A stretch of 41,696 nucleotides of DNA. Source: Pontiellaceae bacterium B12219. Its GTDB lineage: Bacteria > Verrucomicrobiota > Kiritimatiellia > Kiritimatiellales > Pontiellaceae. The DNA is taken from assembly GCA_029432795.1 (NCBI GenBank), contig JARNMJ010000040.1, positions 1 to 41,696 on the forward strand. The letters are read 5' to 3'. Below the pieces are notes generated by a model. The model saw only the letters and a list, made by a program, of their open reading frames with translations, was not told where the DNA came from and searched no databases. Position numbers and translations under genes: made by a program. Below are positions 620-33,784 of the stretch, one piece after another (position 1 is the stretch's first letter; every line of letters begins with the position of its first letter).

Positions 620-1603
620 CTACCCCAGACCCACCCAAATAAACCAGCCGAAAGCTGCGAGTAAAACAGCGGCGGCGATGCGCGGAAGTTTCCCCAACAG
701 CACCACAAAAAAAAGGTGCGCCGCGCATAGCCCCATAAGCATCAACAGGGACTGCTGCAAAAATCCAGAGGCAGGAATATCGTGAAATACAGCAAACAAC
801 CCGATGCAGAACGGAATACAAATGTGTGCATCACCGGATTGCGAAGTATAAACGACATCCATTCGCTTCTTAGCCCCGTAGTAAAAGGCCAATAACGCGT
901 TCGGAAGCACCATCAAAACCCCACTGGCCCAGCCCAGTATTTGCGGGAAAACAACTGCATTTTCCAGGCTTTGGAACCATTGCACCAACCAGTCGGTGCT
1001 GATGAAAACGCCGACGGAACCCAGCAGCAATAAGGCAATTTCCAACGGCAGGGTGAGCGGGTAGGATTTCTTTTTCAGGAGATTTGTTTTCTTCACATCG
1101 TAAATATGAAAACACTGCCAAAAGATAAACAGCAGCAATAAGACACAGCCGTCCATGCGGGTGAGGTTTCCGTCTGAAGCCAACAGCCAGACAAACACCG
1201 AAAAGAACAGCGCCGCAACCAGATTAAGCGCCAGCGAAAGACGCCCCATTTTATATTCCAGCACAACGGCCTTGGTTTTCTTCACCGGAATGCGCGTCAT
1301 GCCCCAGATGAGCACCGGCCCGCCCACCAGCAGCGTCATATTGGTGACATTATTGAAAAGGCTGTTAATCACCACCTCTGCTCCGCTCCCGTTATTTCGG
1401 GCCATCACGAGTGCAAAAACGATATTTCCCATACCGGAACAGAACGGCATAACGATGGTGCCGAGCACAGTGCCCTCCACCCCCTGCCCCGACAGCACTT
1501 CCAGCCGCCAGACCACCAGCAAACTTGCCAGCAGAAACAGAATAATGCAGGTGACCGGCGCAAATGCGCCAAGGGATGAAATTGCAGCATGAAGTATTTC
1601 CAT
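620..1603 (-). CDS. Sodium/calcium exchanger-like membrane protein (divergent CaCA type)
   Basis: This is a 327-aa polytopic inner-membrane protein with about ten hydrophobic segments. Two related regions look like the inverted alpha-repeats of the cation/Ca2+ antiporter superfamily. The first is GTVLGTIVMPFCSGMGNIVF followed by an NSLFNNVTN motif, where classic members have PE and GSNIFN. The second is GWASGVLMVLPNALLAFYYG and onward. The acidic residue that normally follows the proline in the first repeat is replaced (MPF), so the transported ion is uncertain. The start at 1603 places a hydrophobic segment near the N terminus. A hydrophilic loop (RIPVKKTK) separates helices in the first half. 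The gene reads toward the 119-565 gene. An exact palindrome copy lies in its second half and encodes FQSLE. The exchanger-like fold is fairly likely; substrate and direction are unknown. Confidence 0.6.
   Translation of the reverse strand: MEILHAAISSLGAFAPVTCIILFLLASLLVVWRLEVLSGQGVEGTVLGTIVMPFCSGMGNIVFALVMARNNGSGAEVVINSLFNNVTNMTLLVGGPVLIWGMTRIPVKKTKAVVLEYKMGRLSLALNLVAALFFSVFVWLLASDGNLTRMDGCVLLLLFIFWQCFHIYDVKKTNLLKKKSYPLTLPLEIALLLLGSVGVFISTDWLVQWFQSLENAVVFPQILGWASGVLMVLPNALLAFYYGAKKRMDVVYTSQSGDAHICIPFCIGLFAVFHDIPASGFLQQSLLMLMGLCAAHLFFVVLLGKLPRIAAAVLLAAFGWFIWVGLG
962..976. repeat. Dispersed palindrome copy 1 (TTCCAGGCTTTGGAA)
   Basis: Exact match to TTCCAR-NNN-YTGGAA, inside the exchanger-like gene, read on the minus strand as codons for FQSLE. 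Confidence 0.85.
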
Positions 1604-2145
1604 AGACCCGAATAATTAGCAGGATTAGAACCAACACCGATACAAAATTCGAGTGCATGTGCAGCGAGTAAAACAGGAATATATGGTTCTACGTAGAATT
1701 TCATGGAAGGGGCAACGGATTAACAGAAAACAACGGATGATATCTTGAAGGAACGCCCATTCGCAGGGTTACTTTTTTACTGTCCAAAAAATTGATTTCA
1801 TGAGCTGTGTATGAATGTAACAGGTTTTTCAGTACAGACTTATACCGCTTATATTAATCCGTTGGAACCTGAGAACATGCGCGCCGCGATCCGTTGCAAA
1901 TAAATTTTCGAAGTACGGGATAGAGGCTCTTGAAATCGTAAACTTCACCACAAAAATCTACGTAGAACCGAATATATACTGAAACACTCACTCCTTTAAA
2001 AAACAGCATCAATTTCAGCATTTTCATACTCCCACGCTGTTCTTTCAAAATAACTTGCTACAGAGGAGCCTTTCAGCGGTAATGTCATTGATCTCCCGAT
2101 CACGCAGCCGGCGCGGTAACGAACAAAAAAAACTGGAGCACAACT
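1604..2145. other. 542-bp intergenic region with inverted TTCTACGTAGA repeats
   Basis: Two inverted copies of a roughly 28-bp sequence, with core GGTTCTACGTAGA and an AT-rich flank, lie at about 1675-1706 (core palindrome TTCTACGTAGAA, 1687-1698) and 1945-1985 (core TCTACGTAGA, 1957-1966, in reverse orientation). Between them the plus strand has a short open stretch (about 1829-1900) that could be a decayed gene fragment, but I do not recognise it. No convincing promoter or RNA gene was seen. Confidence 0.4.
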
Positions 2146-2778
2146 ATGCTGAAAAAATTAATGGAATCGTTTTTTATACTGGCTCTTGCCGGAGGACTTC
2201 AGACCTTTTCAGAAAAGGCGGTGGCTTCCGATGCAAAAACGATCGGAGCAAATACACAGCCCTCAGAATTCGCAACAACAACCACTGAAAAAGCGAAACG
2301 GACCAAGGCCAAATCTAAGACAAGTTTCAAAGACAACCTATTTTTCGGAGGTTACATCAACCTGTCTTTCGGAAACTATAAGGTTATAGGCATCGAACCT
2401 ATGATCGGTTACAGACTGACGCCCAAATTTGCCGCCGGCATGAAGCTACGCTATGACTACATTGAGGATGAACGATATGCCAAGAGCTACACCACCAGTA
2501 CGTATGGCGGCAGTATTTTCGGCAGATATCTTTTAACGCCGAAGTTTTATGCGCAGGTTGAAACAGCGACGTATAACTACGAATACTTCTACTTTTCCGG
2601 CGGATCTGAACGCGACGAATGGGTTCCCTTTCTATTTATGGGCGGAGGCCTCATTCAACCCCTCGGCGAACGGTCCTGGATGAATATCCAGATCATGTTT
2701 GATGTGTGGCAGGACGACAGTTCACCCTACGACGACTGGCAACCCTTCTTCAGCTTTGGTGTCGGTGCAGGATTCTAA
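2146..2778 (+). CDS. Small outer-membrane beta-barrel protein
   Basis: This 210-aa protein starts with a signal peptide (hydrophobic core ESFFILALAGGLQTF, likely cleaved after VAS near residue 28). A Thr/Lys-rich linker to about residue 62 follows, then alternating aromatic/polar strands (FFGGYINLSFGNYKVIGIEP and so on), ending in the terminal Phe typical of barrel proteins recognised by the BAM machinery. The size suggests an eight-strand barrel of the OmpA/OmpX/OmpW kind. No enzymatic motif is seen. GGAG about 10 nt upstream supports the ATG at 2146. The flanking intergenic regions are long, so it is probably transcribed alone. Confidence 0.65.
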   Translation: MLKKLMESFFILALAGGLQTFSEKAVASDAKTIGANTQPSEFATTTTEKAKRTKAKSKTSFKDNLFFGGYINLSFGNYKVIGIEPMIGYRLTPKFAAGMKLRYDYIEDERYAKSYTTSTYGGSIFGRYLLTPKFYAQVETATYNYEYFYFSGGSERDEWVPFLFMGGGLIQPLGERSWMNIQIMFDVWQDDSSPYDDWQPFFSFGVGAGF

Positions 2779-2963
2779 TAAAGGGCGACACGTTGTGATC
2801 TAATGAATTTTCGCTGGCTCACTTTATCCTCATCTCGGAAAAATTTCCTCTCCCGATAAATAGACGATAATCATGGTGTTTTACCTTGAGGAACCGCCGC
2901 CGTTCCGTAGATTAGCTTCATGATCATCTTTTGCACATTTCCATTAATAGCTAGAGGTTAAAA

Positions 2964-5378
2964 ATGAAACCATGCTGTATAATTTCTTTTCTTACCCTTA
3001 TCGGAAGCAGCATATCGTTACAGGCTGGGGTGGAGAGTGCTGTCAACCTGAAGATTCCACCCGGCACCTCCGCCACCTTGACAGCACCGGGATGGAAAGA
3101 AGCAACGTTTACAGAGGGACCTCTCTCTACGGATGACTATGGAGACGGCGGCTTTTCCAGCACAAACTTTATCCACACCACAAACACACTCACTCTCACC
3201 GTAAGTAATCTTCCGCCGCACACCACGCTCGAATTCGGAATGCACTTGAGTCAGATGGGCTCACTTGATCCAGCCCGCGATGGCGATCTCATTACCATCA
3301 CCGTCGACGGCATCGAGGTTTTCCATGCCGGACTGGGCTTTGGCACCGCAGGTGGTTACCATGAAGATAAAATTCAATTTTTCCGGCTGAATGGGGTCAG
3401 TGCCAGCAATGCCCTGCTGGAAACGGCCCGCACCTTGACCTTGGACAAACCCTACGATGAGCATATCTACGACCTGTCACAACTCGCAGCATTAAAAAGT
3501 ATTGTACACACCAACACAACGGCAACCATCGTGATCACTGCTTCCGCTGACCAAGGCTGGGGCAACGAAGGCTATGGCCTTGATAACATCGCGGTCATAC
3601 TCGATGCCGATGGAGACGGGCTCTCGTATGTTGAAGAAACCCTCTTGGGAACCGACCCGAATAAATATGATACGGATCGTGATGGGATGAATGATAAATC
3701 CGAAGTGGACAACGGCCTAAGTCCTCTCATCAGCAATGCTCGGAAAGACTCCGACAACGATGGGTTGCATGATCTCATCGAAGTCAATCGAGTCGGCACA
3801 GACCCGCTGAACCCGGATACGGATGGAGATGGGCTTCCGGACCTTGAATCCCCTCAACTCGAACTATGGAATGATATCGTTTTCGATCACCTCCAAACAC
3901 CAGCCCACGTAACCGACATTATGGCGGTCGCGGCCGGAACACATCATATACTGGTTGCAAAGACGAATGGCACCCTCGCAGCATGGGGTGATAATTCATT
4001 TGGGCAATCTTTCGTTCCATCCTGGGTGAGCTCCACGGTCGAAATTTCGACAAGCCTACACGGACTGGCACTGCAGGCCAGCAGTTCCGTGGTCGCATGG
4101 GGCTATAATAATCGTGGCCAAGCCACGGTGCCGGCCTCGGTCACAAATGCAGTGGCGGTAGCTTGTGGAGGTGAATTCAGCCTGGCCCTGTTGGACGATG
4201 GAACCGTCGCCGCGTGGGGCGACAATTCATATGGCAACCAAACCACGGTACCGGCTTCAGTGACCAATGCGATCGGGATTGCAGCGGGGAACGCTCATAG
4301 TCTGGCCCTTTTGGCGGACGGCTCCGTAGTCGCATGGGGAAACAACTCGTATGGTCAAACGAATGTACCGGCTTCGGTGACCAATGCCATAGCCATCTCG
4401 TGCGGAGATTCACATAGTCTGGCCCTGTTGGAGAATACTTCCATCGTTGCGTGGGGATACAACGCATCCGGTGAATCCACCGTACCTCCGGGGATAACAA
4501 CGGCCGTAGCCATTGATGCCGGGGGCAATCATAACTTAGTACTGCTGGAAGATGGCACGGTAACGGCGTGGGGCGATAACTCTTCCGGCCAACTCACACA
4601 GCCCGCCTCCATCACCATCACCAATGCGGTGGCCATCTCCGCCGGATATTCCTACAGCACCGCACTCGATCTTAAAACGAACCCGCTGGACCCCGACTCC
4701 GATAATGACGGACTCGAGGATGGCCCCGAAGTCAATCTATACGGAACCGACCCAAATCTAGCCGATACGGACGACGATGGCATGGATGACAAGGCGGAAG
4801 TCGACAACGGACTCGATCCACTCATTAGCAATATCGGGCTGGATTCTGATAACGATCAATTGAGTGATATATCCGAAGTCAATACACACGGAACCAACCC
4901 CAAAAAAGCCGATACGGACGATGACGACATCGACGATAACGCTGAAATCGACAACGGGCTCAATCCGCTGGTCAGCAACGTCGGCGCAGATTCAGACGGG
5001 GATCAAATTACCGACAAAGATGAGGTCGACAATGGACTGAACCCGCTGGTCAGCAATACGGGACAGGATTCAGATAATGACAACGTGGATGACCGAACGG
5101 AGGTGCAGATCGGGATGAATCCGCTGCAGGATGATTCCATCGTACTCAATGCCGTACAGAACAACAATGCGCTTTTCGGCCTCTACCCCTCCAATGTTGT
5201 GCTGGACCTTTCGGTCGGTCAAGCCCTGTTTGAGATCGCTGCCGGAACAGCGACGCTACAACTTCAGCTCGAACAATCTGAAGACCTGCAAAGCTGGACG
5301 AATGCCGGCGAGACTGTCGAATGGACTTTACCGGTTGGAACGGAAAAAAGATTCTTCCGCGTGCGTACCGGTCAGTAA
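2964..5378 (+). CDS. Secreted protein with TSP3-type Ca-binding and RCC1-like repeats
   Basis: This 804-aa protein is secreted. Residues 1-22 are a signal peptide ending near SLQAG. Residues about 23-210 form a beta-rich domain. Residues about 213-300 are Asp-rich calcium-binding repeats ([35 protein letters not shown]). Residues about 315-565 carry seven to eight RCC1-like units built on [27 protein letters not shown], predicting a beta-propeller. A second Ca-binding block follows (about 572-722). The C-terminal domain (about 730-804) ends [14 protein letters not shown]...[10 protein letters not shown], a terminus style I associate with secreted proteins of Verrucomicrobia-like bacteria, perhaps for sorting or folding. 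The start is supported by TAGAGGTTAAAA just before the ATG. A surface or extracellular binding role is likely; I see no catalytic domain. Confidence 0.75.
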
Positions 5379-5410
5379 CCCCCAACATTTCGCCAGCGGC
5401 GTTTAGATGT

Positions 5411-5425
5411 TTCCAACCCTTCGAA
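5411..5425. repeat. Near copy of dispersed palindrome (TTCCAACCCTTCGAA)
   Basis: One mismatch to the consensus in the right arm; it lies 33 bp after the stop of the preceding gene. Confidence 0.6.
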
Positions 5426-5470
5426 AACCGGGGCGATGCATGCGGCTCGCCTCCACTTTTCGCCATTCCA

Positions 5471-5505
5471 CAAAAAAAGCGCCCCGCAAACGGGACGCTT
5501 TCTTG
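5471..5505 (-). terminator. Intrinsic terminator of gap
   Basis: The hairpin AAAGCG-C-CCCG, loop CAAA, CGGG-A-CGCTTT (5477-5501) is followed on the minus strand by a run of T (the A-run at 5472-5478). It sits 20-50 nt beyond the gap stop codon. The plus-strand side also has a short T-rich end, so it could act on both convergent genes. Confidence 0.8.
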
Positions 5506-5525
5506 AATCGAAGAAACGACTGAAC

Positions 5526-6563
<1,038 letters not shown>

Positions 6564-6579
6564 TTAAAAATGAGCGCGA

Positions 6580-6608
6580 ACATTACCCAACCCTAAAAAC
6601 CCCGTCAA
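6580..6608 (-). promoter_or_regulatory. Predicted sigma-70 promoter of gap
   Basis: On the minus strand, TTGACG (6608-6603), 17-bp spacer, TAATGT (6585-6580). It lies 59 bp upstream of the chosen start. Confidence 0.6.
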
Positions 6609-6648
6609 CCTTGATACCGTGCTTTTATAGCGGTAATCGGGCTATCTA

Positions 6649-6669
6649 TATTTAGATTAAATCTAAATA
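6649..6669. promoter_or_regulatory. 21-bp perfect palindrome between gap and porin (candidate operator)
   Basis: Arms TATTTAGAT (6649-6657) and ATCTAAATA (6661-6669) around TAA. The palindrome lies between the divergent gap and porin promoters, immediately upstream of the rightward TTGACT, a natural position for a dimeric regulator to affect both. No regulator gene is adjacent. Confidence 0.55.
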
Positions 6670-6674
6670 AGCTG

Positions 6675-6702
6675 TTGACTTTTAATTAGTCGCAACTAAA
6701 TT
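6675..6702 (+). promoter_or_regulatory. Predicted promoter of the porin-Rnf-like operon
   Basis: TTGACT (6675-6680), 16-bp spacer, TAAATT (6697-6702). The spacer and -10 contain a second inverted repeat (TTAGT, loop CGCA, ACTAA). The resulting leader would be about 250 nt, long for a simple gene, and contains an exact palindrome copy at 6713-6727. Confidence 0.5.
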
Positions 6703-6712
6703 GGCCGGCGTT

Positions 6713-6727
6713 TTCCAGTCATTGGAA
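6713..6727. repeat. Dispersed palindrome copy 2 (TTCCAGTCATTGGAA)
   Basis: Exact match, intergenic, just downstream of the predicted porin promoter, so in the mRNA leader. Confidence 0.85.
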
Positions 6728-6958
6728 AAGCAATTATCCCTATCAGGGTGGCCCTGAAGGTTGTTTAAACGAAATTTTATATCGGCGTGCGGGTTCTGCG
6801 GATGAACCGGATGCTGGATGCGGAGCTTTGGTTAGGCAGTTTTCAGCAGGTTTAAGGTATCGCGTTTTCCTACTATAAACGCAGCTCACCAATCCAGCCT
6901 GTGCTTCCCCATTTTCTCATCCAGCTCGTATGCCAGTCATATAACAAAGGAGAATGAA

Positions 6959-8215
6959 ATGAAATATAACTGGATGAACACCCTCAGCAGCAGCGCTTTA
7001 GTTGCTGTTCTCAGCTCAACGGCCCTCGCAACCGATGCGGACCGCCTTTCCGCACTTGAGAAAGAAATGACCGATACCAAAGCAGAACTGGCGGCATTGA
7101 AAGGCGAAAAAACAGATCTCTATGGCATCGAAACATCTGAAAAAAGTAAATTCACCTTCGGCGGTTATGCAGAAGCTCACGCCAACTTTGTCGATGGCGG
7201 CGGGGATCAGTTTGATATCCATCGCCTTGTCCTGTATCTCGGCTATGAATTTGCAGACTGGATTCGCCTCTCTTCCGAAGTGGAACTTGAGCATGCCTGG
7301 ACTGACGACGGCGGCTACGTTTTGCTTGAGCAATTGTATGTCGACTTCCTGCTCTCGGATCCGCTCAGCATCCGGGTGGGTCGCGTACTCGCCCCGTTGG
7401 GCATTGTAAACCAGAACCACGAACCCACCCTCTTTTTCGGGGTCGAACGTCCGTTTGTGGATCAGGTCATCATTCCCACCACCTGGTCCATGGACGGCGC
7501 AGGTATTTTCGGGGCACCCTTAAGCTGGCTGACCTACGAAGCCTACGCCGTGGCCGGTCTGGCCGGCAGCGGGTTTGACGGATCTGACGGTGTGCGCGAC
7601 GGACGCCTCAAAGGGCGCGAAGGACTGGACGATCCAGCCGTTACCGGCCGAATCGACTTCTATCCGTTTGTCGATCGTGATCTCCCGGCCCAGCAAGACC
7701 TGCGTATTGGTGTTTCCGGCTATTACGGCGGGACCGATAACGCAAGCCGAGGCGGCCCTGGACCCGGCAATGTTGACAACACCTTCGCCATGGCCGCAGC
7801 CGATTTTCAATACGATGTTTCCCGCGTCATCGTCCGCGGTGTGGTTGCTTTCGGAAATAACTCCGATGCAGCAGCCCTGAACGCGGCATACAGCAACGAC
7901 GTCGGCGAAGATATTTTCGGCTGGTATCTGGAAGGCGGCGTCAGCGTGATGCCCGATTCCTGGAAAACCGGCAAACTGAAAGAGTCCGACATCATCCCGT
8001 TCGTGCGCTACTCCATGTACGACACCCAGCATAAAGTCCCGACCGGCACGGTCAAAAACGAAGCCAACGACCGCTCTGATGTCACCGTGGGCGTAAACTG
8101 GATGCTGACGCAGAACTTTGTGCTTAAAGCCGATGCGCAATTCATGAGCAATGAGCTCGTCGGTTCAGATGTGAACAACCGCTACAACCTTGGAATGGGT
8201 TGGATTTTCCAATAA
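6959..8215 (+). CDS. Outer-membrane porin with N-terminal coiled coil
   Basis: This 418-aa protein starts with a signal peptide (cleavage after STALA, near residue 24). A short heptad-like segment follows (DRLSALEKEMTDTKAELAALKGE, about residues 27-50, expected to trimerise or contact the cell wall). The barrel begins near FTFGGYAEAHANF and ends MGWIFQ. Segments such as GRVLAPLGIVNQNHEPTLFF and IIPTTWSMDGAGIFG resemble phosphate/pyrophosphate-selective porins of the OprO/OprP type, but specificity cannot be read from sequence. The start is supported by AAAGGAGAATGA upstream. The gene leads directly into the Rnf-like genes 144 bp downstream with a hairpin between them, so porin and redox module may be co-regulated. 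Its stop codon TAA lies inside an exact palindrome copy (8207-8221). Confidence 0.8.
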   Translation: MKYNWMNTLSSSALVAVLSSTALATDADRLSALEKEMTDTKAELAALKGEKTDLYGIETSEKSKFTFGGYAEAHANFVDGGGDQFDIHRLVLYLGYEFADWIRLSSEVELEHAWTDDGGYVLLEQLYVDFLLSDPLSIRVGRVLAPLGIVNQNHEPTLFFGVERPFVDQVIIPTTWSMDGAGIFGAPLSWLTYEAYAVAGLAGSGFDGSDGVRDGRLKGREGLDDPAVTGRIDFYPFVDRDLPAQQDLRIGVSGYYGGTDNASRGGPGPGNVDNTFAMAAADFQYDVSRVIVRGVVAFGNNSDAAALNAAYSNDVGEDIFGWYLEGGVSVMPDSWKTGKLKESDIIPFVRYSMYDTQHKVPTGTVKNEANDRSDVTVGVNWMLTQNFVLKADAQFMSNELVGSDVNNRYNLGMGWIFQ

Positions 8216-8221
8216 TTGGAA
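8207..8221. repeat. Dispersed palindrome copy 3 (TTCCAATAATTGGAA), spanning a stop codon
   Basis: Exact match. The variable centre supplies the TAA stop of the porin gene (8213-8215), so the last two residues, FQ, come from the left arm. Confidence 0.9.
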
Positions 8222-8237
8222 GAGCCGCAGAGCAACA

Positions 8238-8287
8238 CTGGAGGGGTGATCGCCATACGCCCGGGCGCACGGCGTGCGCCGCTCCAG
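8238..8287. repeat. Structured CTGGAG...CTCCAG element with strong hairpin
   Basis: Outer arms CTGGAG (8238-8243) and CTCCAG (8282-8287) enclose a 7-bp perfect hairpin, GGCGCAC (8264-8270) and GTGCGCC (8274-8280). It lacks a T-tract. Its position between the porin and the Rnf-like genes could stabilise the porin mRNA or reduce downstream expression. It shares its outer design with 566-619. Confidence 0.5.
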
Positions 8288-8359
8288 AGCATTGCCTTTC
8301 CCTCTTGCGCAGACACGTCTTAACAACGTACTCTGCGCATTATTTTTTGGAGTACCTGT

Positions 8360-8869
8360 ATGTTAAAAAATGCACTAATAGCGGCTCTGCTTTTCCCCGC
8401 CCTGTCCTTTGGGAACAGTGCGGATCTGCAACAGACGATCAATCAGGCCATGACCGGCCTGACCATTACCACCTCGGGCGATCCCTACTCCCGTGCCATT
8501 AAACGCCTCTACATCGGTCTGGATGAAAACGGCGAACCCAAAACCGGCGTCGCCTTCCGTGAAATTGAATCGTTTAAAACCATCACCGGTGTGGTGGTGG
8601 TCGACAAAACCGAAAGCGGATACATCCTGCGCGAGTCCTCGTTTCCAGACATTGGAAAAATCAAAAACCCCAAAGACCGCAAACAGGTTCTGGCCGTACT
8701 GGAACAATTTCAGAATATTCCCTTCGATCCCCACGCCGAGAAATCAGCGGTCGACACCTTGTCCGGCGCCACACGATACGGGATAAAAGCATCAGGTTAT
8801 CTGAACTACATGGCCCGGCACGTAGCCCTGCAAATGGAAAACCTGCCGGAGTGGGCAAAAAAGAAATAG
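8360..8869 (+). CDS. FMN-binding RnfG-like protein
   Basis: This 169-aa protein has an N-terminal hydrophobic segment (LKNALIAALLFPALSFG), either a cleaved signal peptide or a membrane anchor, then an FMN-binding domain. The DTLSGAT motif (residues 132-138) matches the [S/T]GAT motif of RnfG/NqrC-type proteins, in which FMN is joined to the threonine (here Thr138) by a phosphoester bond. A periplasmic electron-carrier role is expected. It is shorter than typical RnfG (about 200 aa). ATG at 8360 follows GGAGTACCTGT. It lies 3 bp before the RnfC-like start, so translation is probably coupled. Residues FPDIGK are encoded by a palindrome copy. FMN attachment is inferred from the motif. Confidence 0.75.
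   Translation: MLKNALIAALLFPALSFGNSADLQQTINQAMTGLTITTSGDPYSRAIKRLYIGLDENGEPKTGVAFREIESFKTITGVVVVDKTESGYILRESSFPDIGKIKNPKDRKQVLAVLEQFQNIPFDPHAEKSAVDTLSGATRYGIKASGYLNYMARHVALQMENLPEWAKKK
8643..8657. repeat. Dispersed palindrome copy 4 (TTCCAGACATTGGAA)
   Basis: Exact match inside the FMN-binding gene, in the codon phase that gives PDIG. Confidence 0.85.
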
Positions 8870-8872
8870 TCT

Positions 8873-9901
8873 ATGCTGCGCACGATTAAGATCGATTGGG
8901 AACACCTCGCTGATTTCCAGACTCTGGAAACGCCCTTCCCCCGCCCGGAACGCACCTTTCCCGGCATTGATGAAATCAATCCGGAGACGTTTCCAGCCTT
9001 TCTGGATGATATCGAACTGGTCGGTATGGGCGGAGCCGGTTTCCCCACATCGGAAAAAATCAGAGCCAACCGACACTCTCACACCCTCGTCGTCAACGGC
9101 ATCGAATGTGAACCCGGCATTACCATCGACACCGCCGTACTTCTGCACGAATCGCTCTGGGTGGCAGCCGGCGCCGAAGCCTGTGCAAAAGCCATTGGCG
9201 CAAAAAATATCGTGCTCGTTGTGAAGAACGATCCCGAGCTGATTGCCAAATTCCGGAAACTCTACGACGAATTTAAAATCATCCCCTTTAAAAACACATA
9301 CCCTTCCGGAGCGGAAAAAATCATCCTCGAAAAACTGATCGGCAAACGGCCTGCTCCCGGCACACGGCCCTTTCAGTTCGGATATCTGATTCAGAACGTC
9401 GTCTCTCTGCGCGCCGTCGGCCGTGCGATCATCGACGGTATTGCCGTCGTTGAACGCCCCCTCACATTGACCATGCCTTCGATCGGATTTTATAAAAACA
9501 TCATTGCCCCGATCGGGCTCAGTATCCGCGAAATACTGGCCATCAACAACCTGCCCTACGATCCAGCCATTCACATTATTTCCGATTCAGGACTGATGAT
9601 GGGAAAGGAAGTCAGCCTCGACGACGCAATTGAAAAAACCACGCTCTCCCTCCTCATCCTGAAACGTGACGCCGTATGGCGCGAGGAACGGCCCTGTACC
9701 CGGTGCGGAGCCTGCAACACCGCCTGCCCGCTCGGCCTGCACCCGTTCACGCTCACAGAAAAAATCAGAAAAGGAAAAACAACAAACAACGCCTTTAAAG
9801 GACAGATGGCCGAGTGCTTTCTCTGCGGCGTCTGTTCCGCCGTCTGCCCGTCCGACATCCCGCTCGTTCAAACCCTGGCAGAAGGAAAAAAATGCCTGTA
9901 G
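8873..9901 (+). CDS. RnfC-like iron-sulfur/NADH-binding protein lacking the N-terminal domain
   Basis: This 342-aa protein resembles the core of RnfC. Residues about 45-200 contain the NADH/FMN-binding fold of complex I 51-kDa-like proteins (GMGGAGFPTSEK, NGIECEPGI), followed by a probable SLBB-like segment. Two [4Fe-4S] motifs follow: Cys275, 278, 281, 285 (CTRCGACNTACP) and Cys315, 318, 321, 325 (CFLCGVCSAVCP). Standard RnfC is usually over 430 aa and begins with a barrel-sandwich domain that is missing here. It would pass electrons from NADH or ferredoxin to the FMN proteins at the membrane. The gene is 3 bp after the RnfG-like gene and overlaps the RnfD-like gene by 10 bp. A palindrome copy encodes FQTLE near its start. 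Confidence 0.8.
   Translation: MLRTIKIDWEHLADFQTLETPFPRPERTFPGIDEINPETFPAFLDDIELVGMGGAGFPTSEKIRANRHSHTLVVNGIECEPGITIDTAVLLHESLWVAAGAEACAKAIGAKNIVLVVKNDPELIAKFRKLYDEFKIIPFKNTYPSGAEKIILEKLIGKRPAPGTRPFQFGYLIQNVVSLRAVGRAIIDGIAVVERPLTLTMPSIGFYKNIIAPIGLSIREILAINNLPYDPAIHIISDSGLMMGKEVSLDDAIEKTTLSLLILKRDAVWREERPCTRCGACNTACPLGLHPFTLTEKIRKGKTTNNAFKGQMAECFLCGVCSAVCPSDIPLVQTLAEGKKCL
8915..8929. repeat. Dispersed palindrome copy 5 (TTCCAGACTCTGGAA)
   Basis: Exact match with the G/C-pair variant at the inner arm position. Encodes FQTLE in the RnfC-like gene. Confidence 0.8.
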
Positions 9902-10857
9902 TCAGCCCCTTCATCCGAACCGGTTCCCGCTCCTCCGCCATGGCGGCGTGGGCAATGATCGCACTGCTGGTGCCCTGCTCGATCTACAGCGTACTCTACG
10001 ATTCAACCTTTATTTGGCGGCTGATCGGCTATGCCCTGCTCGGCATGCTGGCCGAAACGATTTACACCCTGCTTGTGAAACGAAAACGGCGGCTCATCTG
10101 TATGGGCTCCGGCTTTACCGCCGCGCTTATTGCCGCCAGCGTTCCGCCCTCGATGCCGTTTCTTCCGATGCTTTTTGCCATTCTGATTGCGATCTGGATC
10201 ATAAAACTTCCAATGGTTGGAAGTCCGTTGCGGTTCAACGCCGCCATGGTCGGGCGCCTTTTCCTCATGCTGGTCTATCCGGCCCAAACCGTAAACTGGG
10301 GCACACCGACGGTCGACGTGATTTCCACGGCCACGCCGCAGGAACTGTATCGCACCGAAGGGTTTCCGCTTGAATGGTCCGAATGGCTGTTCAGCAAAAT
10401 TGACGGAACGTGGGAAGGTTTGTTTTTACTGGTCCCCGGAAGCCCCGGCGAAACCTTTCCGTTATTGCTTGTTTTGCTGGGCGGGTGGCTTTGCCGGAAA
10501 GGGATTCTCGGATGGAGAACACCGCTCTTCTTCCTGATTTCATTCAGCATTACCACCGCTGTTTTTGGTCACTCCCCACTCTTTAACCTGCTCTCTTCAG
10601 CCACTCTCTTCAGCGCCATATTTATTGTGGCCGATCCGGTCTCCACGCCGATGAGCAAAAGCGGGCAGATCATTTGCGGCATCATCATCGGCCTCGGCAA
10701 TGCACTGGTTCGTGAATTCACGTTTTACACCGAAGCCATTGTCTATGCTGTTCTGATCGGCAACCTGTGCGCCCCATTGCTCGACCGCATGGCCTTCGAG
10801 CTCCGCGGAAAAGCACTGTTCAAACGCATGACTGAAGTTCCAACGATTGGAAAATAA
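9892..10857 (+). CDS. RnfD-like membrane protein
   Basis: This 321-aa integral membrane protein of the RnfD/NqrB family has about eight to ten hydrophobic segments and family signatures such as GSPLRFNAAMVGRLFLMLVYP and VADPVSTPMSKSGQI. The family attaches FMN to a threonine in an SGAT-type motif; here the corresponding stretch reads DVISTATPQ, with the threonine kept and the glycine replaced. I chose the ATG at 9892, inside the end of the RnfC-like gene, because AGAAGG lies 7 nt upstream and the longer frame from 9814 would add 26 Arg-rich residues before the first helix. The operon seems to end here: a terminator-like hairpin and the convergent trxB follow. No rnfA, rnfB or rnfE is present. 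Confidence 0.8.
   Translation: MPVVSPFIRTGSRSSAMAAWAMIALLVPCSIYSVLYDSTFIWRLIGYALLGMLAETIYTLLVKRKRRLICMGSGFTAALIAASVPPSMPFLPMLFAILIAIWIIKLPMVGSPLRFNAAMVGRLFLMLVYPAQTVNWGTPTVDVISTATPQELYRTEGFPLEWSEWLFSKIDGTWEGLFLLVPGSPGETFPLLLVLLGGWLCRKGILGWRTPLFFLISFSITTAVFGHSPLFNLLSSATLFSAIFIVADPVSTPMSKSGQIICGIIIGLGNALVREFTFYTEAIVYAVLIGNLCAPLLDRMAFELRGKALFKRMTEVPTIGK
10208..10222. repeat. Dispersed palindrome copy 6 (TTCCAATGGTTGGAA)
   Basis: Exact match inside the RnfD-like gene, encoding PMVG; flanking C and G extend the symmetry by one base on each side. Confidence 0.85.
10838..10852. repeat. Dispersed palindrome copy 7 (TTCCAACGATTGGAA)
   Basis: Exact match at the very end of the RnfD-like gene, encoding PTIG two codons before the stop. 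Confidence 0.85.
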
Positions 10858-10883
10858 AAAACCCGCCGGAAATCCGACGGGTT
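10858..10883 (-). terminator. Intrinsic terminator of trxB (shared by convergent genes)
   Basis: Arms AACCCG-C-CGG and CCG-A-CGGGTT (10859-10882) around AAAT. On the minus strand the stem is followed by a T-run (the A-run before 10860), giving a classic terminator for trxB. The plus side has only a weak T-rich tail for the RnfD-like gene. Confidence 0.75.
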
Positions 10884-10891
10884 GTTCTTAT

Positions 10892-10906
10892 TTCCAAGAA
10901 TTGGAA
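10892..10906. repeat. Dispersed palindrome copy 8 (TTCCAAGAATTGGAA)
   Basis: Exact match between the terminator and the trxB stop codon, so in the trxB 3' untranslated region. A second copy lies only 39 bp away. Confidence 0.85.
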
Positions 10907-10915
10907 ATATTTTGG

Positions 10916-27331: not shown

Positions 27332-27970
27332 ATGTGCGGACGATTCACTCAAACTAAAACCCGAAAAGAAGCACTCGAACAGCTGGCGGAAATTGAGCTG
27401 CCGCCACTCTTTCACGGACGCTACAACATTGCCCCAACCCAGCAGATCGCCGTGATCCGCCAACAGAATCCGAAAACTGCCGAAGACTGCATCTGGGGCT
27501 TTGAAAATCCGCGTTCAGGCGCAACCGTCATCAACGCCCGTTCGGAAACTTTGGCAGAACGGCCGATGTTTAAAAATCTGCTATATACCAACCGTTGTCT
27601 GATTCCCGCCGACGGGTTTTACGAGTGGAAAGGCAAACAACCCTACTATTTCCAAACCCTGGGAAAGCGCCTCTTCGCCTTCGCCGGGCTCTGGCAGAAT
27701 GGCCACTGCGTCATCATCACCCGCGCAGCCGATTCGAATATGCAGGGCATTCACGACCGCATGCCGATCATTCTTCCTCCATCCCGCTGGAATGAGTGGT
27801 TACTGGTTCCAAAGATTGGAAAAACCGGAAGCGGGATCGTCAAATTCCAGCTACCGGAAAAATCAGAACCGTTGAGTGCCCGCCCCGTTTCACCACACGT
27901 CAATAAAGTTGCGAACGATGATCCCGAATGCCTCAGTTCAATTGGTATTCAAACCGACCTTTTTGAATAG
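27332..27970 (+). CDS. SOS response-associated (YedK/HMCES-type) DNA-protein crosslinking protein
   Basis: This 212-aa SRAP-domain protein shields abasic sites in single-stranded DNA by forming a covalent crosslink through Cys2 after removal of the initiator Met. The sequence begins MCGRFTQ and keeps the other known active-site positions of the family: Asn68 in NARSE, Glu98 in GFYEW, and His141 in GIHDRMP. I chose the ATG at 27332, not the upstream in-frame ATG at 27248, because Cys must be residue 2. No clear ribosome binding site precedes it; the upstream DNA contains the palindromic stretch GCAATACGTATTAC. A palindrome copy encodes PKIG. It is not linked to other repair genes here. Confidence 0.9.
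   Translation: MCGRFTQTKTRKEALEQLAEIELPPLFHGRYNIAPTQQIAVIRQQNPKTAEDCIWGFENPRSGATVINARSETLAERPMFKNLLYTNRCLIPADGFYEWKGKQPYYFQTLGKRLFAFAGLWQNGHCVIITRAADSNMQGIHDRMPIILPPSRWNEWLLVPKIGKTGSGIVKFQLPEKSEPLSARPVSPHVNKVANDDPECLSSIGIQTDLFE
27807..27821. repeat. Dispersed palindrome copy 15 (TTCCAAAGATTGGAA)
   Basis: Exact match inside the SRAP gene, giving PKIG. Confidence 0.85.
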
Positions 27971-30302: not shown

Positions 30303-30317
30303 TTCCAATCATTGGAG
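30303..30317. repeat. Near copy of dispersed palindrome containing the aroQ ribosome binding site
   Basis: TTCCAATCATTGGAG: the last base differs from the consensus and turns the right arm into GGAG, which is the ribosome binding site 6 nt before the aroQ ATG. The two arms can pair and would hide it. Confidence 0.7.
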
Positions 30318-30323
30318 AATGGA

Positions 30324-30758: not shown

Positions 30759-31747
30759 CGCCGGGCCATCTTCCGAAAGCCTTCGTCGAAAATCTGCATG
30801 GCGGGAATATTCCGGTCCAGCCGTTGGGCCATATTTTCAATCTCCCGAATAGCATTCAGCGCCGAGGCCTGCGTATGCAGCTTGGCCTGTTGTTCCAGCA
30901 CATTCCGATCATTGGAAAAAATGAGCTGCTCTGCATCGATTCCAGACGCCAGCATCAACACATCCCGATGCCAGTCCAGCATGACCCGAAAAACATCCGC
31001 CTGAACTTCTTTCAACCGGGCATTGATTCGCGCTTCCAGAATCACCTTTAATTTGGATTCATCCAGCGCTTCATCGTTCTGGTCCAGCTCCTCAACCACC
31101 GTGGCCGAAATATTCTCTTTCACCGTATCCAGAATCGCCTTCATCTGGCTGGCCAACCGTGCAGCATCCAATCCGCCCGTCGGCGGCATACCGGATAGAA
31201 CATTCATCAAAAGTATCTGCCAAATCTCATTCAGCATTCCAATGCGCCCTTCCGAAAGAACGATCTTCTGGCAACGGGAAATAATGGTCGGCAACAGGCT
31301 TTGCGGAGAATCGGTGACCAACAGAAGCAAGGTGTTTTGCGGCGGTTCTTCGAGGGTTTTAAGCAGTTTATTTTCGGACTGATTATTCATCCGGTCGGCC
31401 TGCAGAATAATGCCCGCTTTCCAGCCGCCACCAAATGCTGTTTGGGAAATTCGATGAATCAGGGCTTCAACATCCTCCACCCGGACCATGCGCGATTTAC
31501 TCTGCGGTTCGACCCACAGCGTATCAGCATGTTTATGCGCCTCCACCTGCCGGCATCCCTTGCATTCATTACAGGGTTTTTCAGCGCGTTCGCAAAACAA
31601 CAGTTTTAAAAAGGATTCCGCAAACTGGAGGGCATTTCCGCGGGTTGAACCCACAATGACGTAGGCATGCGCCAAACGCCCGGACTCAAATCCATTCCGG
31701 ATTCCCTGCCAGGCTTCGGCATGCATATCAACAACGTCCACACTCAA
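30755..31747 (-). CDS. holB: DNA polymerase III delta-prime subunit
   Basis: This clamp-loader subunit helps load the sliding clamp. The 330-aa protein has an AAA+ fold with a degenerate P-loop (GSTRGNALQF, no GK), as expected of delta-prime, which does not hydrolyse ATP. It also has the zinc module CERAEKPCNECKGCRQVE, the segment MNNQSENKLLKTLEEPP, and the arginine-finger region PTIISRCQ. The likely start is the TTG at 31747 overlapping the tmk stop (TTGA), consistent with translational coupling; a GTG at 31741 and ATG at 31726 are alternatives. It is the last gene of the nadD-rsfS-cysS-tmk-holB operon. Confidence 0.88.
   Translation of the reverse strand: MSVDVVDMHAEAWQGIRNGFESGRLAHAYVIVGSTRGNALQFAESFLKLLFCERAEKPCNECKGCRQVEAHKHADTLWVEPQSKSRMVRVEDVEALIHRISQTAFGGGWKAGIILQADRMNNQSENKLLKTLEEPPQNTLLLLVTDSPQSLLPTIISRCQKIVLSEGRIGMLNEIWQILLMNVLSGMPPTGGLDAARLASQMKAILDTVKENISATVVEELDQNDEALDESKLKVILEARINARLKEVQADVFRVMLDWHRDVLMLASGIDAEQLIFSNDRNVLEQQAKLHTQASALNAIREIENMAQRLDRNIPAMQIFDEGFRKMARR
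30903..30917. repeat. Near copy of dispersed palindrome (TTCCGATCATTGGAA)
   Basis: One mismatch in the left arm, within holB, in the codon phase that gives SNDRN. Confidence 0.55.
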
Positions 31748-32382
31748 AGCAATGCCCCGTTCACCGCATTCCAGACATCGGCAGCCACGTCCTCAATAGA
31801 ACGATCGGCCTTTACAATACAGAACCGTTCGGGCTCGCGTTCCGCCAGCTTGTGATAGCCATCGCGTACCCGATGATGAAATGCGCGCGCTTCCCGCTCA
31901 AAACGGTCGTGCGAATCCTCGGAATCCGCATAGCGTTTTTCCAACCGTTGGAACCCGGCTTCAACATCCAGATCCAGCAGAATCGTGAGATCGGGTTTTC
32001 GGTCATAAATGGCAAAAGCATTAATCGCATCCAACGTGGTCAAATCCATCCCCCGCGCAAAACCCTGATAGGCCATCGTGGAATCGATAAATCGATCGCA
32101 GAGCACCCATCCCCCGCTTCCAAGGGTTGGAAGAATCACACGGTCCATCAACTGGGCGCGACTGGCTGTGAACAGGAGCAGCTCAGAACGGTCGCAGAGC
32201 GGCTCTCCGGCCGCATCGTGCTGAAGCAGATTACGAATCTGTTCGCCCGTTGCTGTTCCGCCGGGCTCCCGCGTGCAGGTGATTTCCAGTCCCCGCTTTT
32301 CAAGCTGCTCAACCAGCAACCGGATCTGCGTGGACTTACCACTGCCCTCGGGCCCCTCAAACGTGATGAATTTTCCGGACAT
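31744..32382 (-). CDS. tmk: Thymidylate kinase
   Basis: This enzyme phosphorylates dTMP to dTDP. The 212-aa protein has the P-loop GPEGSGKST (residues 10-18), the substrate motif LCDRFIDSTMAYQG, and a lid region rich in Arg. ATG at 32382 begins 1 nt after the cysS stop codon; a longer frame to 32520 has no support. Tmk next to holB is a common bacterial arrangement. Two exact palindrome copies fall within the gene, encoding FQRLE and PTLG. Confidence 0.96.
   Translation of the reverse strand: MSGKFITFEGPEGSGKSTQIRLLVEQLEKRGLEITCTREPGGTATGEQIRNLLQHDAAGEPLCDRSELLLFTASRAQLMDRVILPTLGSGGWVLCDRFIDSTMAYQGFARGMDLTTLDAINAFAIYDRKPDLTILLDLDVEAGFQRLEKRYADSEDSHDRFEREARAFHHRVRDGYHKLAEREPERFCIVKADRSIEDVAADVWNAVNGALL
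31939..31953. repeat. Dispersed palindrome copy 16 (TTCCAACCGTTGGAA)
   Basis: Exact match in tmk, minus-strand codons FQRLE. Confidence 0.85.
32118..32132. repeat. Dispersed palindrome copy 17 (TTCCAAGGGTTGGAA)
   Basis: Exact match in tmk, minus-strand codons PTLG; 179 bp from copy 16 but in a different reading phase. Confidence 0.85.
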
Positions 32383-32383
32383 G

Positions 32384-33784
32384 CTAAAGCTTTCTGAGTT
32401 TCGGTCCTTCGGGCGTGTCTTTAACCGTCCAGCCAAGCTCGGCAAGCCGATCACGAATGCGATCGGATTCCCCCCAGTTTTTCTCGGCACGTGCAACTGT
32501 ACGGGCTTCAAGCAGCTCATTAACTTCCGGGGAAATTTCTTCCTGTTGCGGAATCAGCAAGCCCAGCACTGCATCCAGCTCTTTCCAAAGGTTGGAAACT
32601 GCAACAGCCTGACTTCCTGTAAGCGGTGAATCAACCATGGCTTTATTGCCTGCATGAACCGTATCGAACACTGCAGCCATCGCCCCGGAAATATTCATGT
32701 CGTCATCCATGGCTTCCGCAAAGCGTGCCCGGGTGCTCTGAGCCCATTCCGGCAATTCCCCGGCTTTGGTTTCAGAACCGGCAGCTTCCTGTACTGTTGT
32801 ATAAAATTCATCCAGACGTTTCAACGCCGCCCGGTTTGCGTCCAACGATTTGAAGGCAAAGTTCAGTGACTGACGATAGTGCGATGAAAGCAGCTCATAC
32901 CGGACTTCGCGTCCGGTGTACCCCATATCCAGAATCTCGCGAAGGGTGTAAAAATTACCGACGGATTTGGACATTTTTTTCCCATCGACCACCAGGTAGC
33001 CACAGTGCATCCAATATTTTGAATACATTTTTCCGGTGGCCGCTTCGGACTGCGCAATTTCGTCTTCATGATGCGGAAAGATATTGTCGACGCCGCCGGT
33101 ATGAATATCAAAACTGTCCCCCAGCAGATCCATGCTCATGGCCGAACATTCAATATGCCAGCCCGGACGTCCTTTGCCCCAGGGCGAATCCCAGACCACA
33201 TCGCCGTCTTCAGGAACATAGGCCTTCCACAAAGCGAAGTCGGCGGCATTGTCTTTATCGTATTCATCCTGTGCAACACGTGCTCCGGACTGCATACCCT
33301 CCCGATCGAGATGCGCCAGTTTTCCATATGTTTCAAACTTATCAATGCTGTAATAAACCGAACCGTCTTCGGATTGATAGGCGTAGCCTTTCTCGAACAG
33401 GGTCTCAATGATCTTAATCATTTGCGGAATATAATCCGTCGCCGCAGGATAGTGCTCCGCCGGCTCAATATTGAGTTTTGCCAAATCATCAAAGAAGGCA
33501 TCAATGTAGGTCTTCGTATATTCTTTAAGGGCCATGCCCTGCTCAATCGATGAACGTATGGTTTTGTCATCCACATCGGTCAGGTTCTGAACCTGCGTGA
33601 CTTCGAATCCGCAGAATTTAATATAGCGGCGAAGCAGATCCTCGAACATATAGGCCCGAAAATTTCCGATGTGCGCGTAATTATATACGGTCGGCCCGCA
33701 GGTATACATTCGCACATGTTTACCATCGAGGGGAATCAACTCCTCCTTCGTCCGGCTCATCGTATTGTAAATTTTAAATGCCAT
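32384..33784 (-). CDS. cysS: Cysteinyl-tRNA synthetase
   Basis: This enzyme charges tRNA-Cys. The 466-aa class I synthetase has Cys29 of CGPTVYN as zinc and substrate ligand, the HIGH motif as HIGN (residues 38-41), further zinc ligands in WHIECSAMS and HHEDEIAQ, and KMSKS around residue 270. ATG at 33784 overlaps the rsfS stop (TAATG), giving coupled translation; upstream extension to 33907 is out of family. It forms the centre of the nadD-rsfS-cysS-tmk-holB operon. Confidence 0.97.
   Translation of the reverse strand: MAFKIYNTMSRTKEELIPLDGKHVRMYTCGPTVYNYAHIGNFRAYMFEDLLRRYIKFCGFEVTQVQNLTDVDDKTIRSSIEQGMALKEYTKTYIDAFFDDLAKLNIEPAEHYPAATDYIPQMIKIIETLFEKGYAYQSEDGSVYYSIDKFETYGKLAHLDREGMQSGARVAQDEYDKDNAADFALWKAYVPEDGDVVWDSPWGKGRPGWHIECSAMSMDLLGDSFDIHTGGVDNIFPHHEDEIAQSEAATGKMYSKYWMHCGYLVVDGKKMSKSVGNFYTLREILDMGYTGREVRYELLSSHYRQSLNFAFKSLDANRAALKRLDEFYTTVQEAAGSETKAGELPEWAQSTRARFAEAMDDDMNISGAMAAVFDTVHAGNKAMVDSPLTGSQAVAVSNLWKELDAVLGLLIPQQEEISPEVNELLEARTVARAEKNWGESDRIRDRLAELGWTVKDTPEGPKLRKL
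32583..32597. repeat. Dispersed palindrome copy 18 (TTCCAAAGGTTGGAA)
   Basis: Exact match in cysS, minus-strand codons SNLWK, the third possible reading phase of the palindrome. Confidence 0.85.

Follow-up and report, generated by a model that had tools for sequence, protein, structure and literature searches.

Dyad-symmetric sites that serve chromosome architecture are known from the MatP/matS, Noc and parS-type systems. The nucleoid proteins known from bacteria either have loose binding or recognise a limited set of sites, so that rotational packing rules are hard to read from sequence. Short motifs may also be iterated across whole genomes: HIP1 of cyanobacteria is palindromic, iterated and patchy among lineages, and alternate HIPs accompany matching methyltransferases (PMC4390886). 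Regulators of the Lrp type bind 13–17 bp sites in same-face clusters, two or three helical turns apart centre to centre (PMC2995911), and the Pasteurellaceae and Neisseriaceae have an excess of DNA uptake sequences (PMC1939737).

We describe here a 15-bp palindrome, TTCCAR-NSN-YTGGAA, that shares features with several of these. Like HIP1 and the alternate HIPs it recurs about a thousand times, both within and outside genes, and is patchy among related genomes. Unlike HIP1, of which we know no helical phasing, it is helically phased in two genomes (G107 and G001), is longer, with another sequence and a gapped centre, and forms tandem arrays in other families; it matches neither the HIP1 sequence GCGATCGC nor a GC-rich alternate HIP. 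Lrp/AsnC (FFRP) operator clusters resemble it in having several 13–17 bp dyad sites per target, on one face, at two or three turns; here, however, there are hundreds to thousands of sites, mostly intragenic in G107 and G000, the phasing in G107 spans up to about 48 turns, and presence of an Lrp gene (285 of 345 genomes) does not track the motif. Density, coding locations and origin by substitution recall DNA uptake sequences, whereas the present motif is dyad-symmetric, helically phased in relatives, and found in arrays. Compared with the dyads of MatP/matS, Noc and parS-type systems, also sites for chromosome architecture, the present ones are far commoner and are tied to no single region in that part of G107 which was sampled. 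Phased A-tracts of prokaryotes leave a signal of helical period throughout the genome, which has been linked to DNA-bridging proteins (PMC3940949), but here a specific 15-bp recognition sequence takes the place of generic A/T runs.

Palindromes in the window

The window is the whole stretch of DNA analysed, 41,696 nt. It holds 18 exact copies of TTCCARNNNYTGGAA; 100 dinucleotide shuffles gave a mean of 0.01 and never more than 1. A sequence-only reading by a model had listed these 18 copies and put the chance expectation far below one per window, and on recount every coordinate was correct. It counted eleven copies as coding, and 11 indeed lie wholly within coding sequence; by the ORF map the copy at 8207 overlaps a stop codon and the other 6 are intergenic. 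No exact copy occurs at 33–41.7 kb, as it had noted. The seven one-mismatch copies that it gave are all genuine, but the total is 11, those at 16916, 26181, 27650 and 27845 having been overlooked; its degenerate copy at 13562 has 3 mismatches and falls outside our list of copies with at most 2. No strand is assigned to any copy below; signs are those of genes.

Exact sites:
962–976, TTCCAGGCTTTGGAA, in the Na/Ca-exchanger-family gene 620–1603 (−), FQSLE; also in 3 relatives
6713–6727, intergenic, between a divergent GAPDH gene (−) and a porin-like gene (+), the latter with a Pfam score slightly below the cut-off
8207–8221, overlapping the stop codon of the porin-like ORF 6959–8215 (+)
8643–8657, in ORF 8360–8869 (+), RnfG-like from its position, with no Pfam hit, FPDIGK; also in 2 relatives
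8915–8929, in the RnfC-like gene 8873–9901 (+), which has Nuo51 FMN-binding and 4Fe-4S domains and which we take to be RnfC, FQTLE; also in 3 relatives
10208–10222, in the RnfD-family gene (+), LPMVGS; also in 3 relatives
10838–10852, at the C-terminal end of the RnfD-family gene, PTIGK
10892–10906, intergenic, 54 bp from the 10838 site
12026–12040, upstream of a presumed dihydrolipoamide-dehydrogenase-like gene, its name and start being our assumption
19097–19111, in the autotransporter gene 17762–20590 (+), FQGLE
20701–20715, intergenic, with convergent genes on either side
22438–22452, intergenic, upstream of the CTP synthase gene
26337–26351, directly past the stop of the autotransporter gene 22590–26333
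26652–26666, in the FAA-hydrolase-family gene (−), VPDLGN; also in G021
27807–27821, in the SRAP gene (+), VPKIGK; in G000 only among 11 rows
31939–31953, in the thymidylate kinase gene (−), FQRLE; also in 3 relatives
32118–32132, in the thymidylate kinase gene (−), LPTLGS; also in 2 relatives
32583–32597, in the cysteinyl-tRNA synthetase gene (−), SNLWK; also in 4 relatives

One-mismatch copies:
103–117
5411–5425
16916–16930, newly added
18166–18180
20718–20732, 17 bp past the start of the exact site at 20701
21216–21230
26181–26195, newly added
27650–27664, newly added; these columns hold an exact site in G021, G020 and G002
27845–27859, newly added
30303–30317
30903–30917, with an exact site at the same columns in G021 and G020

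The 3-bp centre had been taken to be free, which is wrong: at its middle position 42 of 47 G000 sites and 201 of 209 G107 sites have C or G, and the consensus is TTCCAR-NSN-YTGGAA. A weak flank preference, T before the site and A after it, was seen among the 47 G000 sites.

Abundance and distribution

A genome-wide count, named in advance by the sequence-only reading as a possible refutation, left it standing: the window's own 4.75-Mb genome has 1,406 exact sites, against 1 for a backwards control. Within what was searched, enrichment is restricted to one class, the Kiritimatiellia to judge by record titles, and within the family it is patchy, with 1 to 2,106 copies across 29 genomes. The richest genomes carry about 0.3–0.5 copies per kb (roughly one site per 2–4 kb), both genic and intergenic. 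Most sites are inside genes in G000 and G107; the 209 exact sites of the G107 sample comprise 148 coding and 61 intergenic, at densities of 0.21 and 0.51 per kb, and lie beside 156 one-mismatch copies. Very high iteration of the HIP1 type, in coding and intergenic DNA, is thus found here. The G107 sample covers 0–2.56 of 3.88 Mb and both skew arms; 38 of its 41 stretches have 1–12 sites and 3 have none. A segregation signal restricted to one region does not show in these two thirds of the genome.

Of the 345 genomes of the class, 78 have pairs of sites 30–33 bp apart; the control gives none. Other families have intergenic tandem arrays with a spacing of about 31 bp and T-rich and A-rich flanks, and in phage contigs arrays lie upstream of terminase genes. 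All 5 sites of the low-copy genome G085 sit within two arrays of this spacing.

Helical phasing

The new result of this analysis is helical phasing of the sites, at the B-DNA period, in G107, in G001 and in the tandem arrays of other families. Among the 61 exact pairs of G107 that are at most 500 bp apart, 53 are separated by whole 10.45-bp turns and 2 are in anti-phase; the figures are 8 and 4 among the 18 pairs at 501–800 bp, and pairs at 801–4,000 bp show no phase preference. At 16–210 bp, 40 exact pairs give R = 0.84 at 10.4 bp. Pairs of coding sites, each site exact or with one mismatch, give R = 0.92, 0.81, 0.83, 0.73, 0.67 and 0.58 in consecutive distance bins between 16 and 500 bp, and those in one gene at different codon phases give 0.86, 0.78 and 0.74 (37, 26 and 12 pairs). 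For same-gene pairs within 300 bp, R is 0.80 at 10.45 bp versus 0.19 at 10.8 bp; phased pairs also lie inside unrelated genes. Phasing in G107 depends on motif quality: exact sites are not phased with 3-mismatch decoys (R = 0.11 and 0.09; 44 and 90 pairs). Copies with 4 or 5 mismatches have a slight short-range signal (R = 0.22 and 0.08), for which we have no explanation.

In G001, from a second genus of the family, 11 pairs at 61–300 bp give R = 0.72 (p = 0.0012), and 81 exact pairs from other families give R = 0.87. Across 115 stretches of named genomes, R at 16–200 bp is 0.96, 0.92, 0.87 and 0.90 (10, 9, 62 and 13 pairs), leaving out the spacing by which the stretches had been selected. In all these counts pairs from one cluster are non-independent. 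In G107, G001 and other families most close spacings are of 21–22 and 30–32 bp.

Within the genus of the window itself, phasing is weak or fails to reach significance. Spacings in G000 have their highest peaks at 22 and 31–33 bp; pairs at 20–50 bp (50 of 61, those listed) give R = 0.27 (p = 0.026), 23 pairs at 51–81 bp give 0.20 (p = 0.40), and both ranges pooled give 0.21 (p = 0.039), with a best single period of 14.1 bp. Stretches from this genus yield R = 0.23 for 17 exact pairs (p = 0.42) and 0.22 for 49 pairs when one mismatch is allowed (p = 0.10); exact pairs within 500 bp in stretches of G000, G002, G020 and G021 are in phase in 16 of 36 cases and in anti-phase in 8.

Proposed explanation

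The whole-turn spacing in relatives suggests a putative DNA-packaging protein that holds the chromosome by one face, with protein sequences altered so that its sites are preserved. That the palindromes are sites of an oligomeric, Lrp-like protein that reads one face and organises the nucleoid has, in our estimate, a probability of about two in three; we infer the protein binding, the oligomerisation, the architectural role and the loss of the system in low-copy lineages. A protein-binding site was among the readings offered from the letters, and it is supported by the phasing in relatives, which that reader had not seen.

The motif would act as an operator-like element in the Kiritimatiellia, bound by an abundant protein that forms dimers or oligomers, with one dimer per palindrome. 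Dimers on adjacent sites would interact only on the same helix face, so selection would keep whole-turn spacings (22, 31–32, 42, 52, 63 bp and onward, to about 500 bp) and purge out-of-phase sites. Short spacings might allow side-by-side cooperative binding or wrapping, and those of 100–500 bp the bridging of DNA loops or a continuous nucleoprotein fibre. Since the richest genomes have about one site per 2–4 kb across genes and intergenic DNA, chromosome architecture would be the natural role, and gene control would follow as a by-product. Sites would be born by point mutation at tolerant positions, be retained even when amino-acid changes are the price, and decay where a lineage lost or weakened the system. 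The odds seem to us about even for the fuller picture of a sequence-addressed chromatin-like system, in which thousands of near-identical palindromes mark one helix face chromosome-wide and keep rotational register over hundreds of bp, phased fibres or loops form on them from an oligomeric protein, and housekeeping proteins have been rewritten to keep so strict a register.

The best structural analogue of the candidate binder would be an Lrp/AsnC-type octamer. Lrp/AsnC genes occur nearly throughout the class (285 of 345 genomes), with the motif or without, and do not match its distribution; none was found in G010, G022, G023, G024 and G026 of the window's genus, which have 14–171 sites and are 59–89% complete. 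No recurrent gene adjoins the arrays in 47 array rows. The genome itself may record the packing rules, favoured and avoided rotational offsets being countable from the sites; such counts also yield how far the interaction reaches (about 500 bp in G107) and the length of the helical repeat (10.45 bp).

Alternative explanations

A global transcription regulator of the ordinary kind, with a very large number of sites, might instead be at work, the arrays being its promoters or operators. Dyad symmetry, the two- or three-turn spacing of Lrp targets, the higher intergenic density in G107 (0.51 vs 0.21 per kb) and the arrays upstream of phage terminase genes agree with this. We nevertheless hold it improbable, since 148 of the 209 G107-sample sites are intragenic, phased pairs lie within unrelated genes, and array neighbours are not recurrent; the 47 array rows, some arrays being counted twice owing to overlapping loci, divide into 10 in genes and gaps that are co-directional (19), divergent (7), convergent (4) or have one flank unknown (7).

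The data agree less well with DNA uptake, HIP1-type methylation, mobility or RNA hairpins than with the nucleoid-protein reading. An uptake sequence, read as a palindrome by a competence receptor and accruing by biased transformation and recombination, is less probable again than a regulator. The 0.3–0.5 copies per kb of the richest genomes, the coding and intergenic placement and the substitution at tolerant positions suit it, as does the precedent of Pasteurellaceae and Neisseriaceae. ComEC was found in 24 of 24 genomes checked, but it is equally present in motif-poor genomes and so does not discriminate. Against uptake stand the phasing to 500 bp in G107, which has no known role in it, and the intergenic arrays spaced about 31 bp, which to our knowledge are not the known form of uptake sequences.

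We rate no higher a HIP1-like origin, with a cognate methyltransferase or methylation-directed mismatch repair making and keeping the sites. It is favoured by the likeness to HIP1 as an iterated, lineage-patchy palindrome, by the methyltransferases that go with alternate HIPs, and by one-mismatch copies being frequent too (11 in the window; 156 beside 209 exact in the G107 sample). Repair or methylation acts on single sites, however, and so predicts neither helical phasing nor anti-phase loss, and the palindrome has 15 bp with a two-fold degenerate R/Y pair, against the 8 bp of HIP1.

Phased intrinsic bends, A-tract-like and without a specific protein, would have the helical repeat as their period, would have a precedent in known A-tract periodicity and would agree with the T-rich and A-rich array flanks. 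They are very improbable, as bending would need neither 12 specified positions nor a C/G middle base, and 3-mismatch copies are unphased.

Origin of the copies and imprint on proteins

Copies arise by substitution, not insertion. In orthologue alignments 13 of 16 site columns are ungapped throughout, site-less orthologues included, and 10 of 16 hold a site in at least two genomes; the 47 G000 sites have unrelated flanking sequences. The tiny mobile palindrome once proposed is contradicted by these data. Mobile or copy-number-driven palindromes, REP- or MITE-like, gain something from the tandem arrays of some families and the near-fixed centre of G091 (GCC/GGC, among the matches listed), which suggest local copying there; for the window's genus they are largely refuted by the ungapped columns and unrelated flanks, unrelated genes carry phased pairs, and we give them hardly any weight. 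An RNA hairpin working in transcripts has the least chance. In its favour, the palindrome can fold, if weakly (−3.1 to −5.1 kcal/mol in four examples), and sense-strand G..T exceeds A..C in G000 genes (11 vs 5); against it, in the larger G107 sample non-pairing A..C is no rarer than G..T (27 vs 19) and a 10.45-bp period belongs to B-DNA.

Among the interpretations of the sequence-only reading, selection at the DNA level and protein binding are supported; the mobile palindrome and the free centre are not, and a regional segregation signal is not seen in the sampled two thirds of G107. Its view that selection or spread acts on DNA and not on a peptide is borne out by exact sites in all three codon phases, as it had claimed, by G107 phasing across codon phases, and by synonymous resampling, the codon-preserving control that it had proposed: window genes hold 11 sites, against a mean of 1.12 and a maximum of 4 in 50 resamplings with proteins kept, and G107 genes hold 146 against a mean of 17.7.

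The palindromes imprint protein sequences, a DNA-level demand directly shaping them: in sampled G107 genes FQxLE occurs 84 times where 2.0 are expected (42-fold), and the scrambled peptides FxQLE and ELxQF occur 2 times each.

Abundance and form of the palindrome

The 15-bp palindrome TTCCAR-NSN-YTGGAA (TTCCARNSNYTGGAA) is found in the window far more often than chance predicts. The 18 exact matches to TTCCARNNNYTGGAA counted in the sequence-only reading are confirmed (0.01 expected), and none of 100 shuffles yielded as many. That reading also reported about seven one-mismatch copies; such copies exist, but number 11. Its description of the 3-bp centre as free does not hold, since the middle base is C or G at 42 of 47 sites in the window's whole genome (G000) and at 201 of 209 in the motif-rich relative G107. 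Flanks lack conservation apart from weak T/A (47 sites, G000). Centres vary in the window's genome; among the copies listed for genome G091 (L093) the centre is nearly fixed as GCC/GGC.

G000 (4,748,661 bases, 273 contigs) holds 1,406 sites and a single copy of the backwards control pattern, and the window's genes hold 11 sites versus 1.12 expected (maximum 4) when codons are resampled with proteins kept (50 runs), so that the observation stands against both controls. G107 consists of one 3.88-Mb contig, on which 893 sites lie; it was sampled as 41 stretches (820 kb, all within 0-2.56 Mb). All gene calls are those of a simple custom caller rather than a standard program. Resampling the codons of G107 gave 17.7 sites versus 146 observed, and the two synonymous resamplings rule out codon usage as the cause of the sites. 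Four scrambled palindromes have 0 or 1 copy each in the G107 sample.

Taxonomic range

All 29 genomes of the window's family have at least one match, from 1 (G005) to 2,106 (G020); G021 has 2,088, and G017 has 11 in 4.3 Mb. Four small genomes filed in the window's genus (G005, G006, G007 and G011; 1.1-1.3 Mb) have 1-4 sites each, suggesting loss with genome reduction. Among 288 genomes drawn from the larger group of the phylum, all high counts are in the window's class, and the largest count in rows marked only as same phylum is 16. In G087 (family f34 of the phylum, outside the window's class) the backwards control pattern occurs 55 times.

Of the 345 class genomes, 78 have site pairs 30-33 bp apart and none has control pairs; some families have hundreds (1,305 in G340, 728 in G040) and others never have them. 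A scan of 84,980 species' genomes for pairs at this spacing yielded at least 115 stretches. The titles of the 80 listed, from which the class name Kiritimatiellia is taken, read Kiritimatiellae, Kiritimatiellales, Kiritimatiellia, Pontiellaceae, Lentisphaerae, Verrucomicrobia or unclassified, with two exceptions: one stretch labelled Firmicutes, and the stretches of a single MAG labelled Spartobacteria. Around 1400-1550 of locus L194 (genome G351) is an array of 31-bp period whose unit, ATTCCAGCGGCTG[GT]AACG, resembles the palindrome yet differs from it and may reflect a variant specificity. The motif is not described in the titles or opening lines of abstracts retrieved, and exact-sequence queries found no match; the word "palindrom" is absent from the word-searched text of Pontiella papers, and "motif" from that of one of them.

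Origin and placement of copies

Codon alignments of 22 orthologue groups, with up to 12 genomes, contained 16 site columns. Thirteen have no gap in any row; of the other three, two fall within the variable tail at the C-terminus of RnfD and one where 5 of 11 rows have gaps. Ten of the 16 columns have an exact site in 2-5 genomes, with near-copies frequent in the remaining rows. Examples of such shared exact sites are:

Thymidylate kinase, FQRLE: site in G000, G021, G002 and G027
Cysteinyl-tRNA synthetase, SNLWK: site in G000, G021, G020, G002 and G012

Given the ungapped columns and the near-copies, sites arise through point mutation; the same columns rule out insertion or mobility, and with it the "tiny mobile palindrome" of the sequence-only reading. 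No site column was found in 12 of the 22 groups (some with only three genomes), including threonyl-tRNA synthetase, CTP synthase and GAPDH, and this lack in slow genes suggests that sites become established at positions where the protein can accommodate them. Protein sequences bear their imprint: 84 copies of FQxLE (2.0 expected) and 13 of SNxWK (0.4 expected) were counted in 587 sampled G107 genes, and the scrambled peptides FxQLE, ELxQF and KWxNS occur 2, 2 and 0 times.

G107 sites, at 0-12 per 20 kb, are spread across the sampled range and lie on both sides of the skew switch, which is near 1.4 Mb. Their density is 0.51 per kb between genes versus 0.21 in coding sequence (61 and 148 sites). 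Array rows from other families, 47 in number with some arrays appearing twice, comprise 10 called intragenic, 19 in co-directional, 7 in divergent and 4 in convergent gaps, and 7 with one flank unknown. Array neighbours in 27 genomes include no recurrent gene family, save one short similarity between two genomes, and inspection by eye of low-array genomes found no shared feature. In the window itself, two large autotransporter-barrel proteins (17762-20590 and 22590-26333) lie either side of the CTP synthase gene.

Helical phasing

Phasing strength of pair spacings is given as R; a pair is in phase when its cosine exceeds 0.5 (a third by chance), and p values of 0 denote an observed value reached by none of 2,000-20,000 simulations. 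Overlapping pairs inside one cluster are not independent. Exact pairs in G107 at 16-210 bp have R=0.84 at 10.4 bp, the best period (40 pairs), and no simulation was as high. Of the 61 exact pairs within 500 bp, 53 are in phase and 2 anti-phase; the figures are 8 and 4 of 18 pairs at 501-800 bp, and 53 and 62 of 181 from 801 to 4,000 bp. At 301-500 bp the pair number is near expectation (13 versus 10.7), yet 10 are in phase and none anti-phase, which suggests removal of out-of-phase neighbours. When only adjacent sites are taken, exact or with one mismatch, R=0.75 (104 spacings of 16-300 bp).

Phased pairs occur inside unrelated genes, and R is 0.86, 0.78 and 0.74 for exact or one-mismatch pairs whose members differ in codon phase. 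These pairs, the intergenic pairs and the period (R=0.80 at 10.45 bp, 0.19 at the alpha-helix period of 10.8 bp) rule out peptide periodicity as the cause. With two mismatches, copies show phasing at 16-100 bp (R=0.73) and lack it at 101-300 bp (0.17); with three they are not phased (0.11, 0.09). At odds with motif dependence, copies with four or five mismatches have slight signals at 16-100 bp (0.22 and 0.08), significant given their large numbers. The half-site TTCCAA, counted with the sites themselves, is phased (0.49); three 6-mers of similar composition are not (0.12-0.21).

Other families have tandem arrays with spacings mostly of 22 and 30-32 bp, and R=0.87 (81 exact pairs). Two such arrays account for all 5 sites of G085, and three pairs with 32-bp spacing for 6 of the 17 in G065. 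The named-genome stretches (all 115 used, many pairs being from tandem arrays) have R=0.96 at 16-29 bp (10 pairs), 0.92 at 34-60 (9), 0.87 at 61-110 (62) and 0.90 at 111-200 (13), with too few pairs farther apart. For G001, a second genus of the family, 47 of the first 50 listed of 1,555 positions were used, the other 3 each being alone on its contig; R is 0.98 at 16-60 bp (10 pairs) and 0.72 at 61-300 bp (11 pairs, p=0.0012), phasing is not significant at 301-800 bp (18 pairs), and within 500 bp 18 of 26 are in phase and 1 anti-phase.

Phasing is weaker in the window's genus. In G000 the 20-50 bp range contains 61 pairs versus 12.9 expected, with peaks at 22 (5) and 31-33 (17) among the 50 listed, for which R=0.27 (p=0.026). 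The 51-81 bp range, with all its 23 pairs listed, has no phasing at 10.45 (p=0.40), and both ranges together have R=0.21 (p=0.039) and a best single period of 14.1 bp. Among the G000 pairs listed, spacings of 20-81 bp favour about 22, 31-33, 45-48, 60-63 and 74-78 with none at 64-73, closer to a 14-15 bp than a 10.5 bp periodicity. The 75 pairs listed for G021 (25 of 118 at 20-50 bp, 50 of 62 at 51-81 bp) have R=0.30 (p=0.0015). Stretches of this genus had no significant phasing among 17 exact pairs, and within 500 bp 16 of 36 pairs in G000, G002, G020 and G021 are in phase and 8 anti-phase. The phasing claim therefore rests on the relatives and is not demonstrable in the window itself.

A putative binder

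The B-DNA period, the dyad symmetry, the dependence on an intact motif and the loss of anti-phase pairs together argue for protein dimers that interact if they share a helix face. DNA uptake or HIP-like maintenance might each help sites to spread, but both leave the helical phasing unexplained; ComEC, as a marker of uptake, is not discriminating by its presence. An RNA hairpin in transcripts is disfavoured, although the smaller G000 sample leans towards it (11 G..T versus 5 A..C).

We know of no kind of iterated genomic palindrome kept in helical register, although the components of this system, iterated palindromes and same-face operator clusters, are already known. For same-face dimers the likeness is to Lrp-type regulators, whose clustered 13-17 bp sites share a helix face at distances of two or three turns (PMC2995911); in one such regulator DNA is apparently wrapped around an octamer (PMC10201364). 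Theirs is also a same-face interaction, but on a small scale. Most class genomes (285 of 345) have one to three Lrp/AsnC matches, motif or not, so that presence or absence does not discriminate and the likeness is mechanistic only. A signature search of the DNA stretches analysed found no Lrp gene.

Viral contigs contributed 23 stretches with close site pairs. Three phased arrays lie in gene-poor stretches upstream of a terminase large-subunit gene:

L375:2786-2946, phased array
L374:3034-3164, phased array, with an integrase also on this contig
L385:650-767, phased array

Such arrays suggest that phages of these putative hosts share the same binder. L374 and L375 have diverged in the array region but are highly similar in the DNA immediately downstream. 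The unit number of the arrays also differs between these two related contigs.
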